This document shows positions 21,735-25,723 of a stretch of DNA of 35,774 bases, piece by piece. The stretch covers positions 1 to 35,774 of IMG/VR virus record IMGVR_UViG_3300020421_000068; one strand, given 5' to 3'. Positions within the stretch are counted from its first letter, which is position 1. Each line of letters opens with the position of its first letter. The DNA is from a virus. The notes under the pieces were generated by a model. The model was not told the origin of the DNA. It searched no databases and saw only the letters and a program-made list of their open reading frames with translations. The position numbers and the translations under genes are program-made.

Positions 21735-22220
21735 ATGGCAATATTAAACACAAACGAAATTATGTTCACAGCATTTGAACCTAAAGTACAAAATAGGTTT
21801 ATAATGTATATAGATGGAATACCAGCATTTTTAGTGAAAAAAATATCAAGACCAAATATTCAATTTGGAGACGTAACTCTTGACCATATCAACGTGAAAA
21901 GAAAATTAAAAGGAAAAGCTGATTGGCAAAATGTTACAGCTACTCTTTATGACCCAGTAACACCTTCAGGTGCACAAGCAGTAATGGAGTGGGTTCGTTT
22001 ATCACATGAATCAGTTACAGGTAGAGATGGTTATTCTGATTTCTATAAAAAAGACATTAGATTTAATGCTTTAGGTCCTGTAGGTGATATAGTTGAAGAA
22101 TGGATTATGAAAGGAGCTTATGTACAACAAGCTAACTTTGGAGAAATGGATTGGAGTGTTGATACACCAGTTGAAATTTCATTAACTATTAGAATGGATT
22201 ACGCTATCTTAAATTACTAA
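21735..22220 (+). CDS. Tail tube protein, T4 gp19-like
   Basis: This is the subunit of the inner tail tube. Its length (161 aa) matches T4 gp19 (163 aa). Characteristic segments are PKVQNRFIMYIDGIPAFLVK, then 'I.RP...FG.VTLDHINVKRKLKGK', WQNVTATLYDPVTPSGAQAV and a C-terminal 'GEMDWS..TPVEISLTIRMDYA'. It follows the sheath gene and has its own promoter nonamer and a strong terminator, consistent with high expression. Confidence 0.95.
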   Translation: MAILNTNEIMFTAFEPKVQNRFIMYIDGIPAFLVKKISRPNIQFGDVTLDHINVKRKLKGKADWQNVTATLYDPVTPSGAQAVMEWVRLSHESVTGRDGYSDFYKKDIRFNALGPVGDIVEEWIMKGAYVQQANFGEMDWSVDTPVEISLTIRMDYAILNY

Positions 22221-22320: not shown

Positions 22321-23139
22321 ATGGAACAAAACAAATTTGCAAACACACAACAACCAGTTACCCCTCAAAATGAAGAACAAACATATCAGTTCCCTACAGA
22401 GGAAGTAACATTACCTTCAAAAGGATTATTATATCCAGAAGGCCATCCATTAAGATCAGGAGTTATACGAATGAAATATATGACTGCTAAAGAAGAAGAT
22501 ATCTTAACAAATCAAAATTACATTAAAAATGGTACAGTAATAAATAAATTACTTCAATCTGTTATTGTTACACCTTGTGATTATAATGATTTATTAATAG
22601 GAGATAAAAATTCACTATTAATAGCTGCTCGTATTTTAGGATATGGTAGTGACTATACTTTTACTTATAGAGACCCTTCAACAGGTGAAGAAGAACAAGT
22701 AACAGTAGATTTAACAGAATTAGACGATAAAGAACTTGATGAAAGTTTAATGAAAGAGGGTAAAAATGAATTTGATTTTCAATTACCTCATTCAAAAATC
22801 AACATTACTTTTAAAATGTTAACCCATGGTGATGAAGAAAAAATTACTAAAGAACTAAAAGGTCTTAGAAAAATAAATAAATTTACATCAGCAGAATTAA
22901 CTACACGTTTAAAACATATGATTTTATCTGTAAATGGAGATTATGAGAAAAAAACAATTAGAGAATTTGTTGATAATGCTTTATTAGCAAGAGATTCTAA
23001 ATCTCTTAGAAACTATTTATCTGAAATTATGCCTGATATTGATTTAAAAGTCGACTTAGACTTTTCTAGTGGAGCGACTGCGGAGGGCGTAAGCATTCCC
23101 TTGGGACTCAACTTTTTTTGGCCTGACGCAGACATATAG
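22321..23139 (+). CDS. Tail assembly chaperone / T4 gp26-like protein (G-type frame)
   Basis: A 272 aa protein. Residues about 25-60 read FPTEEVTLPSKGLLYPEGHP, then 'IRMKYMTAKEEDIL', the signature I associate with T4_baseplate (gp26/gp51-type) proteins. It lies between the tube and tape-measure genes, the standard site of tail assembly chaperones that coat the tape measure. The C-terminus is LGLNFFWPDADI. At the TTT TTT codons before WPDADI, a second frame with conserved sequence takes over (see 23110-23121), so a second, longer product of about 350 aa is expected by frameshift. The last 15 or so codons before the site (gcg, gag, ggc, agc, ccc, ttg, ctc) are much more GC-rich than the rest of the gene. 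Confidence 0.75.
   Translation: MEQNKFANTQQPVTPQNEEQTYQFPTEEVTLPSKGLLYPEGHPLRSGVIRMKYMTAKEEDILTNQNYIKNGTVINKLLQSVIVTPCDYNDLLIGDKNSLLIAARILGYGSDYTFTYRDPSTGEEEQVTVDLTELDDKELDESLMKEGKNEFDFQLPHSKINITFKMLTHGDEEKITKELKGLRKINKFTSAELTTRLKHMILSVNGDYEKKTIREFVDNALLARDSKSLRNYLSEIMPDIDLKVDLDFSSGATAEGVSIPLGLNFFWPDADI
23110..23121 (+). other. Probable programmed frameshift site (AAC TTT TTT TGG)
   Basis: The upstream gene reads AAC TTT TTT TGG, whereas the downstream frame reads ACT TTT TTT GGC. A +1 slip of the last Phe tRNA (or a -2 slip) on the seven-T run joins ...LGLNFF to GLTQTYRKSMFDAIHDL. The second frame is open from 23093 to 23374 but has no ATG before 23147, yet its pre-ATG codons encode sequence typical of the T-type chaperone extension. 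A homopolymer sequencing error is the main alternative. Confidence 0.65.
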
Positions 23140-23146
23140 AAAGTCA

Positions 23147-23374
23147 ATGTTCGATGCCATCCATGATTTAGTATTTCATGGTGGTGGTGGTTTTATACAC
23201 TCAGAAGTTTATAATATGCCAGTATGGATGAGAACCTTCCATATAGATAGAATAAATCAACATAATAGAAAACAAGAAGAAGAAGCAGAAAAACAAAGAG
23301 GACAATCTGAATTACATGAAAATAAAGTTATTCATAGACCCAATATAAGTCCTTCATCAACATTTAATATTTAA
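23147..23374 (+). CDS. Tail assembly chaperone extension (T-type frame; likely expressed as frameshift fusion)
   Basis: From the first ATG this frame encodes 75 aa. The open frame reaches back to 23093, and the residues before the ATG (FFGLTQTYRKS) continue naturally into MFDAIHDLVFHGGGGFIHSE, then VYNMPVWMRTF. This 'yr..l...ihdlv.hG.GGf...evYnMPvwlR.F' layout is what I recall for the frameshifted extension before the tape-measure gene in other phages. The remainder is a charged helix (INQHNRKQEEEAEKQRG). Initiation at 23147 would remove part of the conserved region, so the fusion with the 22321 gene is preferred (266 + 84 residues). A terminator follows 2 bp after the stop. Confidence 0.65.
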   Translation: MFDAIHDLVFHGGGGFIHSEVYNMPVWMRTFHIDRINQHNRKQEEEAEKQRGQSELHENKVIHRPNISPSSTFNI

Positions 23375-23434: not shown

Positions 23435-25723
23435 ATGGCTGAAAAGGACGACGAAAAATCATTAGATCTAGGTAAACAATTAGTACAATCTTATAAAGAG
23501 GCTAATGTTGAACTTATGAATAGAGTATCTATAATAAAAAATTCATACAGTGAAGCAGCTAAAGAATATTCTTTAGTAAAACAAGTCCAACAAGAAACAG
23601 AAAAAGCTATTAAAAGTAAAAAACTACTTTTATTATTAGAAGAAGAAATAACTGAAGGTACTGTTAAATCAACTGATATTGAAAGAGAAAGAGAAAAACT
23701 TTTAGATAGAATAAAAAACCTAACAGCAGATAAGTCATTAGCGGAACAAGCATCAACAAAAGCTCAACAAGATGGGTTAAAAGAAGAATCTGAATTATAT
23801 CAAGATATAGTTAAAGAAATAGAAGAATCTATTGATAAATTAGAAAAAATGGAAGCTGCTGCTAAAGGAGTAGAAGATCAAGCTAAAAAATTAGAAAAAG
23901 GAGGTGGAGCAGGATTTTTTACACAATTAGATAAAGCTTTTGGATCAGATGGTAAAGGCCAACAAAAAGGATTTTTCTCATCACTAAGAGAAGGATTTAG
24001 TGAAGCTGCTAAAGAAGCTAAAAAAATAAGATTTCAACAAGATCAAGCAAAAGAAGCTTCAAAAGAAAGAGAAAATATTAAATTTGATGAAAGATTAGGA
24101 GCTAATGCAAAAGACCCTGCAAAAAGAGGAAGATTTGTAGATCAAACCACTAAAAAAATGGTTGGTAAAGATAAAGTTAAAGCTTTAGATGCTAAAATAG
24201 CTAAAGGAGGAGGAGGATTTGCTAAAGTTTTTGGAGGAGCTATGAAAAAAGTAATAAAATCATTAGGACCAATGATTAAAAAATTACTTGGACCTATGGG
24301 ATTAATTCTTGAAGTAATACAGGCAATAGGTAAAGTAGACGCTGAACTTACAGAAATGAGTAAATCTCTTAATATGTCTAAAGGAGAAGCACAACAATTA
24401 AGGGGTGCTATGTCTGTGTCTGCATCTGCTTCTAGTGATATGTTTGTTACTACTTCAAAACTAGTAAAAGCTCAGGCTACTTTAAATCAACATTTAGATT
24501 TAGCAGCAACTTATTCAGGAGATATATTAGTTAAATCTACTCAATTACTTGAAAAAGTAAAAATGACAGGACAAGCAGTAGCAGGATTAGCAGCTCAATC
24601 CTTAATTACAGGAGAATCTATGGATGAAACCTATAAAAGTGCTTTAAGTCTTTCTTATGAAATGCAAAGAGGAGCTAAAATACCTCTTGATATGAGAAAA
24701 GTATTAGAAGAAGTAGGTAAAACACAAGGAGTAATAAGAGCACAACTAAAAGGTAGCACTGAAGAAATTACAAAAGCAGTAACTCAAGCTAAACTTTTAG
24801 GAACAAGTTTAAAAGATGTAGCAGCTGCAGGTAAACAAATATTAGATTTTGAATCATCTATAGCAGCTGAAATGGAAGCCGAATTATTATTAGGTAAACA
24901 ACTTAACTTAGAAAGAGCCAGATTAGCTGCATTAACGGGAGATTATGAAACATTAACACAGGAAATAGCCAAAAATGCAGGCTCTTTTACTGAATTTACC
25001 CAAATGAATGTTTTACAACAAGAGGCATTAGCTAAATCTTTAGGGATGCAAGCAGACCAAATGGCAGACATGTTATTTAAACAAGAAACCCAAAATAAAA
25101 CAGCTCGTGAATTAAGAGCTATGGGTAAAGATGATTTAGCAGATAGATTAGAAGCAACAACAGCACAAGATAAATTTAATGCTTCTATGGATAAATTAAA
25201 AAGTATCTTAGCTGATATAGTGACACCATTAATACCATTATTAGATTTAATTATGTCTGTATTAAATCCTGTTTTTAAAGTATTAACATTTTTAGACCCT
25301 CTTGTAAAAGCAATTCAATTAGTGATAACTTCTATAGTTGATACTATAGGACTTTTATTTGGAGGAAATTATGATGCTACTAAAGCAGGAGCTAAAGACG
25401 TTGTAGCTTCTACAAAAGTTAGTGGAGAAATGTTAGGAATGGGGGACGAAGATAGGGGTGAAGGAGCAATGGGATATTCATATGCAGATGAAGGGATAGC
25501 AATGACTCCACAAATAGCTTCAATAGCAGAAAAAGGACCAGAAGTAATTCTTAATCCAGATAGGATAGACAATACTGAAACAAACGCATTATTAAAACAA
25601 TTAGTAAATAAAGATGTAAATGTTCATTTAGAAAATAAATTTGTTCATGATTCTCACAATGATGCTAATTACTATAAAGGACCAAGAAGCAGGGAAAAAA
25701 GTGACTCAGGAATATTTACCTAA
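23435..25723 (+). CDS. Tail tape measure protein
   Basis: A 762 aa protein predicted to set tail length and to pass through the tube. Residues about 15-150 are long charged helices or coiled coil. Glycine-rich 'GGGAGFF' and 'GGGGFAKVFGGAMKK' segments follow. Hydrophobic helices lie at about 277-298 (GPMIKKLLGPMGLILEVIQA) and 590-646 (SILADIVTPLIPLLDLIMSV onward), as is usual for tape measures that insert in the host inner membrane. The C-terminal 'SIAEKGPEVILNP' is a typical tape-measure ending. Position after tube and chaperones and before baseplate genes is diagnostic. T4 gp29 is shorter (590 aa), so a longer tail is possible. No lytic domain was noticed. Confidence 0.85.
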   Translation: MAEKDDEKSLDLGKQLVQSYKEANVELMNRVSIIKNSYSEAAKEYSLVKQVQQETEKAIKSKKLLLLLEEEITEGTVKSTDIEREREKLLDRIKNLTADKSLAEQASTKAQQDGLKEESELYQDIVKEIEESIDKLEKMEAAAKGVEDQAKKLEKGGGAGFFTQLDKAFGSDGKGQQKGFFSSLREGFSEAAKEAKKIRFQQDQAKEASKERENIKFDERLGANAKDPAKRGRFVDQTTKKMVGKDKVKALDAKIAKGGGGFAKVFGGAMKKVIKSLGPMIKKLLGPMGLILEVIQAIGKVDAELTEMSKSLNMSKGEAQQLRGAMSVSASASSDMFVTTSKLVKAQATLNQHLDLAATYSGDILVKSTQLLEKVKMTGQAVAGLAAQSLITGESMDETYKSALSLSYEMQRGAKIPLDMRKVLEEVGKTQGVIRAQLKGSTEEITKAVTQAKLLGTSLKDVAAAGKQILDFESSIAAEMEAELLLGKQLNLERARLAALTGDYETLTQEIAKNAGSFTEFTQMNVLQQEALAKSLGMQADQMADMLFKQETQNKTARELRAMGKDDLADRLEATTAQDKFNASMDKLKSILADIVTPLIPLLDLIMSVLNPVFKVLTFLDPLVKAIQLVITSIVDTIGLLFGGNYDATKAGAKDVVASTKVSGEMLGMGDEDRGEGAMGYSYADEGIAMTPQIASIAEKGPEVILNPDRIDNTETNALLKQLVNKDVNVHLENKFVHDSHNDANYYKGPRSREKSDSGIFT

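Follow-up and report, generated by a model that had tools for sequence, protein, structure and literature searches.

A programmed +1 ribosomal frameshift, to which we assign a probability of about 0.92 on comparative grounds, appears to join the frame of a gene related to T4 gene 26 to the frame of a short downstream domain in the tail gene cluster of a T4-like virus. The virus is represented by a 35.8-kb metagenomic record (35,774 nt), and "the window" refers to the whole of this stretch. Its tail genes are arranged in the order sheath, tube, gp26-like gene, short open reading frame (ORF) in the +1 frame and long, presumed tape-measure gene, with the gp26-like gene and the small domain (T domain) lying between the tail tube and tape measure genes:

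21735–22220, plus strand: tail tube protein gene (gp19-like; PHROG tail tube, 1.6e-26)
22321–23139, plus strand: gp26-like gene in frame 0, candidate short tail assembly chaperone of 272 aa (Pfam T4_baseplate PF12322, 8.3e-10; PHROG baseplate hub, 2.7e-16)
23069–23133, plus strand: stretch of peak GC content in the window (60-nt window scan)
23082–23086, plus strand: GGAGG element, its last base 29 nt before the P-site codon
23113–23127, plus strand: putative recoding site TTTTTTTGGCCTGAC, conserved across relatives
23116–23118, plus strand: presumed P-site codon, UUU here and CUU in a number of relatives; its tRNA would re-pair one base downstream (YTT followed by Y at the placed sites)
23119–23121, plus strand: presumed frame-0 A-site codon UGG (TGG in 144 of 151 listed sites)
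23120–23122, plus strand: predicted new A-site codon GGC after the +1 shift
23120–23374, plus strand: T-like domain in the +1 frame, 84 aa, predicted to be read only after the shift and to give a fusion of 350 aa (conservation, AF2 model, weak DUF6760 match)
23137–23139, plus strand: frame-0 stop TAG, the end of the short product
23435–25723, plus strand: tape measure protein gene (position and length; the corresponding homologue in phage immuto carries the annotation tail tape measure protein)

The gp26-like protein matches PF12322 with 39.2 bits (curated cut-off, 24.5); a second match to this family was absent among the eight window proteins scanned in the 35.8-kb piece, where the long form would be reached through the +1 frame. 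The tape measure gene (23435–25723) gave no family match, and a tRNA search of the window found none. The 3' end of frame 0 reads AAC TTT TTT TGG CCT GAC GCA GAC ATA TAG (C-terminus FFWPDADI, then stop), and the +1 frame, which reads ..TFFGLTQTYRKSMFDAIHDLVFHGGGGF.., is open from 23093 to 23374 with its first ATG at 23147. This open frame and its late ATG had been described in an earlier note on the same DNA, as had the seven-T run at 23113–23119 with TTT TTT across it and the GGAGGG at 23082–23087, and all are borne out. The stretch before the run is also as unusually GC-rich as the note had claimed: the 60-nt windows starting at 23069–23074 have a GC content of 0.57, the highest in the 35.8 kb, compared with a mean of 0.32.

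The conservation of the site among relatives goes far beyond chance. Relatives in IMG/VR were collected by a blind search, in which the query consisted of gp26 residues ending 25 codons before the T run and the search peptides excluded the run itself; at least 600 rows matched. Among the matches listed, TTTYTTTGGCCTGA is present in register at 74 of 79 complete loci; the remaining five have the close variants TTTTTTTACCCTGAC, TTTTTTTTCCCTGAC, TTTCTTCTCCCTGAC (twice) and TTTTTTTGGCCAGAC, and each of these likewise places the downstream domain in the +1 frame. In the window, TTTYTTTGGCCTGAC occurs once, against an expectation of 0.00 from dinucleotide shuffles. The arrangement recurs in 178 motif-containing sites, which were partly selected by motif and used for frame relations only: a frame-0 stop lies 15–81 nt past the first T in all 178 (at 18 or 24 nt in 163), and the +1 ORF spans 57–196 codons in all but two. 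The T run and both frames thus persist in homologues, and conservation at about 150 non-redundant listed sites gives strong support to the programmed frameshift proposed by the earlier note, here between the gp26-like frame and the frame of the T domain.

These sites form a set of 151 complete and non-redundant sequences, combining the blind sets with Microcystis-type and jumbo-phage-type relatives among the matches listed, in which the site is maintained across about 21 clusters at 60% identity of the T domain. The presumed P-site codon is TTT at 143 and CTT at 8 of the 151 listed sites; the A-site codon is TGG at 144, TAC at four, CTC at two and TTC at one, and is followed by CCT at 150 and by CCA at one. 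Exactly seven T cover the P site at 128 of the 151, and runs of only two to six T are present at 21. The poly-T run that the earlier note took for the slip site is therefore usual but not essential: in the sequences compared, the invariant core across the wider lineages, which is also the pattern (YTTY) required for placement of the 151 sites, consists of YTT in the P site and a pyrimidine after it, mostly in the form of UUU_UGG_C or CUU_UGG_C.

Selection at the nucleotide level is evident from a codon alignment of 80 sequences, in which the columns of the gene with the strongest synonymous bias cluster at the site. Both Phe codons are TTT wherever Phe is encoded (TTC makes up 17% in the rest of the gene), 77 of the 80 sequences have C or G as the last base of the codon before the T run, and the codons at 23077, 23083, 23086 and 23110 have a third-position GC content of 0.60–0.96 across relatives, compared with a background of 0.18. 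The bias at GAC, CCT and the next codon follows from dual coding, but dual coding cannot explain the choice of TTT, the C or G before the run or the GC-biased codons at 23077, 23083 and 23086. The C or G may serve to block a –1 site of the type T TTT TTT. A conserved RNA structure was not found by RNAalifold in an ungapped alignment of 79 sequences around the site, and the single-sequence z-score is about –0.45.

In the proposed mechanism, most ribosomes would read the gp26-like frame to the TAG at 23137 and release the short protein of 272 aa. Some would pause with tRNA-Phe (tRNA-Leu in the CUU variants) on the YUU codon at 23116–23118 in the P site and UGG in the A site; re-pairing of the P-site tRNA one base downstream would turn GGC (23120–23122) into the A-site codon and lead to a fusion of 350 aa with a small, helical T-like domain at its end. 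Gene anatomy, the conservation of the site and of both frames, the lack of starts and the direction indicated by re-pairing can be read from the alignments, whereas slippage and its rate are what we infer, with +1 slippage in the P site while UGG is slowly decoded as the favoured route because of the likeness of the site to those of RF2 (CUU_UGA_C) and Ty1 (CUU_AGG_C). In the RF2 gene (prfB), the tRNA on CUU or UUU in the P site moves by one base to pair with UUU, and some of the relatives studied here have CUU_UGG_C; sites with CUU_U or UUU_U are known for RF2 shifting, those with UUU_U being found in a minority of species, and the prfB site is retained in Bacteroidia in the form of AGGAGGUAUCUU_UGA_C (PMC5009743, PMC8710568). 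The A site of RF2, however, is occupied by the stop codon UGA, whereas that of the phages is a sense codon (UGG at 144 of 151 listed sites), and autoregulation as in RF2 found no evidence here. Ty1 shares the YUU P-site codon, a sense codon in the A site and GGC in the new frame (PMC5009743, PMC8710568) but differs in having AGG instead of UGG, in being a eukaryotic (yeast) element and in encoding an unrelated protein. The presence of a sense codon rather than a stop in the frame-0 A site counts against +1 slippage, as does the weaker performance of UUU_U compared with CUU_U in +1 tests in E. coli (PMC5009743). The upstream gp26 codons of relatives contain a single UGG in about 17,700, but the codon is not generally rare in this phage, because the window has 6.7 per 1000 codons; its slow decoding is a presumption.

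The alternative that the T domain is a small gene in its own right, translated from the ATG at 23147 or another internal start, perhaps by termination–reinitiation after the TAG at 23137, draws on the position of that ATG only 7 nt past the stop, on three relatives (L294, L299 and LR756511) in which an ORF with an ATG of its own encodes the domain, and on the public annotation of immuto, which has a separate gene of 36 aa. In most relatives, judging from the alignments, the second domain is nevertheless without a usable start of its own. Between the opening of the +1 frame and position +70, ahead of the domain core, 97 of the 151 listed relatives have no ATG and 45 have none of ATG, GTG and TTG, and the first ATG is usually the conserved YNMP methionine within the domain. 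The conserved GLTPEYR lies upstream of any start, and the impression of the earlier note that the residues before the ATG are conserved proved correct: in 39 relatives, each residue of GLT either does not vary or reaches a conservation of at least 90%. Past the frame-0 stop, divergence by codon position of the +1 frame is 0.51, 0.35 and 0.58, lowest at the second and highest at the third position. In 43 of the 178 motif sites, a stop just 2 or 8 nt before the T run closes the +1 frame, and because of such limits across relatives, the shift must fall within –5 to +12 of the P-site codon if one site is common to all. Separate initiation also leaves the nucleotide-level constancy of the T run unexplained, and drift of the site is seen in the L294/L299 lineage, whose T domain begins with an ATG of its own (TTC TTG TAT CCT and TTC CTT TGG CCA GAT at the site). 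An independent start, which the earlier note had named as a possible refutation, is therefore real in a few lineages, but as a general explanation it is very unlikely.

The remaining alternatives concern how the second frame is reached, for which the earlier note had left a choice between +1 and –2. A –2 shift, with two bases read twice and one residue added, leads to the same downstream frame, and its P-site re-pairing is possible at 141 of the 151 listed sites; –2 frameshifting has been reported for Mu-like phages. Re-pairing after –2 nevertheless breaks at the other 10 (e.g., TTC TTT TGG and GCT TTT TGG), and tandem slippage would need a conserved codon before the T run, which varies (AAC, AGC, ACG, CAG, TCA). 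A +1 shift of the P-site tRNA retains three base pairs at all 151 listed sites, albeit partly by construction because the placement pattern required YTTY, and –2 is accordingly highly improbable. Slippage of RNA polymerase on the T run, resulting in mixed mRNAs, would agree with the exactly seven T at 128 listed sites, but it is hardly credible given that the frame relation is identical at the 21 sites with two to six T and that the C or G selected at the end of the preceding codon bounds the run. Since the window is a metagenomic virus record, a miscounted run of six T or a decayed gene also had to be considered; however, the same frame relation exists in many independent contigs and in the isolate genomes NC_055915 and PP395634, it extends to sites without a long homopolymer, and selection acts on both frames. 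The miscount suspected in the earlier note is ruled out by relatives with TTTCTTT or TTCTTTT, and sequencing error or decay can be practically dismissed. The short T runs and the failure of –2 re-pairing together argue for a +1 ribosomal shift over –2, transcriptional slippage and error alike.

The upstream GGAGG is under strong selection at the RNA level. It is present within 42 nt upstream in 58 of the 80 aligned sequences, with a spacer to the P-site codon of 29 nt in 45 and of 26 nt in 8 of them, whereas synonymous resampling gave a mean of 2.8 sequences with GGAGG and a maximum of 8 in 1000 runs. The bodies of gp26 genes contain one copy in 53 kb. Elsewhere in the window, GGAGG is not rare and falls mostly in Gly-Gly codons, and the argument therefore rests on position and codon choice rather than on rarity alone. 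Among Microcystis-type relatives, 21 of 72 have GGAGG; other purine-rich strings (e.g., AAGGAG) occupy the equivalent place, followed in some by a frame-0 ATG. In L324, L332 and L394 of this type, the purine-rich element AAAGGAGAG precedes an in-frame ATG, resembling an internal initiation site. An internal start of translation prompted by GGAGG was rejected for the +1 frame, which lacks a conserved start codon and, in many relatives, is closed just upstream.

The idea of the earlier note that GGAGGG is a constrained signal is thus upheld by RNA-level selection, but the spacing of 29 nt does not fit stimulation of the RF2 type or any known Shine-Dalgarno stimulator: the Shine-Dalgarno-like element of RF2 lies about 3 nt from the P codon, whereas the spacings seen here are 29, 26 or 30 nt. 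Shine-Dalgarno cores precede only 2 of 24 gene starts in the window, which is consistent with a Bacteroidetes host, and none of 80 gp26 starts in relatives; in Bacteroidia, the anti-Shine-Dalgarno sequence is sequestered (PMC9976891). Strong RNA-level selection in spite of the near absence of such cores at starts makes it conceivable that GGAGG represents a new kind of frameshift control through the anti-Shine-Dalgarno of 16S rRNA, although ordinary Bacteroidia ribosomes hide this sequence; we regard this as doubtful. If it were true, the ratio of the chaperones would be set by the state of the ribosome, for instance by whether ribosomes late in infection are depleted of bS21 or carry phage bS21.

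The 272-aa protein and the 350-aa fusion are most likely tail assembly chaperones resembling G and GT, which would bring tube subunits to the tape measure, given the position between tube and tape-measure genes and the kinship to gp26 and gp51 of T4. Lambda-type phages make gpG and gpGT by a frameshift between the same two genes. The sequence evidence from the window agrees in that a short protein and a form with a C-terminal extension in another frame, reached at a conserved slippery site, would arise from one start; the difference lies in the direction, which is –1 in lambda and most other phages (PMC5009743) but +1 at YUU_UGG_C in the phages studied here. Since members with +1 or –2 have been reported, a direction other than –1 marks a variant of the G/GT class. 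The haloarchaeal myovirus HSTV-2 is considered very likely to use +1 (PMC5009743), whereas the chaperone of SPP1 has a putative –1 site at UUUUUUC (PMC6316719). Other +1 shifts in structural genes of phages, those of Listeria phage PSA and SPP1, involve slippage at proline codons in tube or capsid genes rather than chaperones (PMC5009743, PMC6316719).

In T4, gp26 and gp51 both match PF12322, and gp51 combines this domain (residues 1–201) with a C-terminal extension, which is the layout of the 350-aa fusion; T4 encodes the two proteins by separate genes, 26 and 51. The T domain aligns with the correct end of gp51, its C-terminus, with an hhalign E-value of 0.057, which is suggestive only, and the whole fusion compared with gp51 gave no support (E 0.42). 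The two parts of the fusion were folded separately. The AF2 model of the gp26-like part has a pLDDT of 88, and its highest-probability Foldseek match is weak (HK97 tail assembly chaperone 2ob9; probability 0.18, TM (target) 0.44, E 3.5). The T domain is modelled as three helices with a pLDDT of about 81–92 over residues 1–60; Foldseek with this domain and sequence searches of the PDB returned nothing useful. DUF6760, which occurs beside phage-tail-like injection systems, is matched by 13 of 39 members of the T domain (best, 1.2e-6), with a weak match in the window (23120–23371).

The carriers of the site appear to be T4-related viruses, mainly of marine and freshwater Bacteroidetes. The T4-like, probably Bacteroidetes-infecting phage suggested by the earlier note is supported by the PF12322 match, by relatives among isolates and by those within bacterial bins (MAGs of Winogradskyella, Flavobacteriales and Sphingobacteriales; a genome collection gave four loci). 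The isolates Flavobacterium phage immuto (TTT CTT TGG CCT GAC) and Microcystis phage Mel-JY01 (TTT TTT TGG CCT AAG) possess the site without annotation. In the record of immuto (NC_055915.1), the T domain (L081:6851–6961) is listed as a hypothetical protein of 36 aa, probably because the gene caller picked an internal start, and the predicted frameshift product is absent.

Complete exceptions to the placement pattern were noticed in six cases. In L294 and L299, the T domain is in a different frame and has an N-terminal extension behind its own ATG; L299 still has GGAGG although the shift seems to be lost. LR756511 likewise has a T domain with its own ATG. In LR756508, a +1 relation is seen at TTT CTA TTC CCT. 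In a distant gp26 relative (L283:3625–3700), which seems to use –1, GAT TTT TTC precedes a T-like domain in the –1 frame, and the direction of the shift may thus differ between lineages. The frames of Streptococcus phage GXN1 are in a +1 relation near CGT CCC C, and a search from its gp26 found just one distant locus. Together, these exceptions point to evolutionary changes in how the long form is made.

A large and widespread group of T4-type phages thus appears to frameshift. According to a review, long-tailed phages "except T4" have kept the G–T frameshift (PMC5009743), whereas Vladimirov (2022), as summarised in PMC10885494, concluded that T4-like phages use a mechanism other than frameshifting, some of them having one short and one long chaperone gene. 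What is new here is a very probable +1 instead of a –1 shift in T4-type phages said not to frameshift, together with a GGAGG signal at the RNA level. The direction is unusual, and so is its setting, a short site like those of RF2 and Ty1 with a sense codon in the A site. The relatives offer a compact, naturally varied set of +1 sites combined with GGAGG in hosts whose translation normally does without Shine-Dalgarno pairing, and isolates such as immuto are currently annotated without the candidate long chaperone. Phage-tail-like injection systems may have an equivalent split chaperone, given the likeness of the T domain to DUF6760. Apparent transitions among related phages include the gain of a start codon by the T domain and a possible –1 site, and the comparison with T4 suggests that one need is answered in alternative ways, by the gene 26/51 pair or by a single frameshifted gene.
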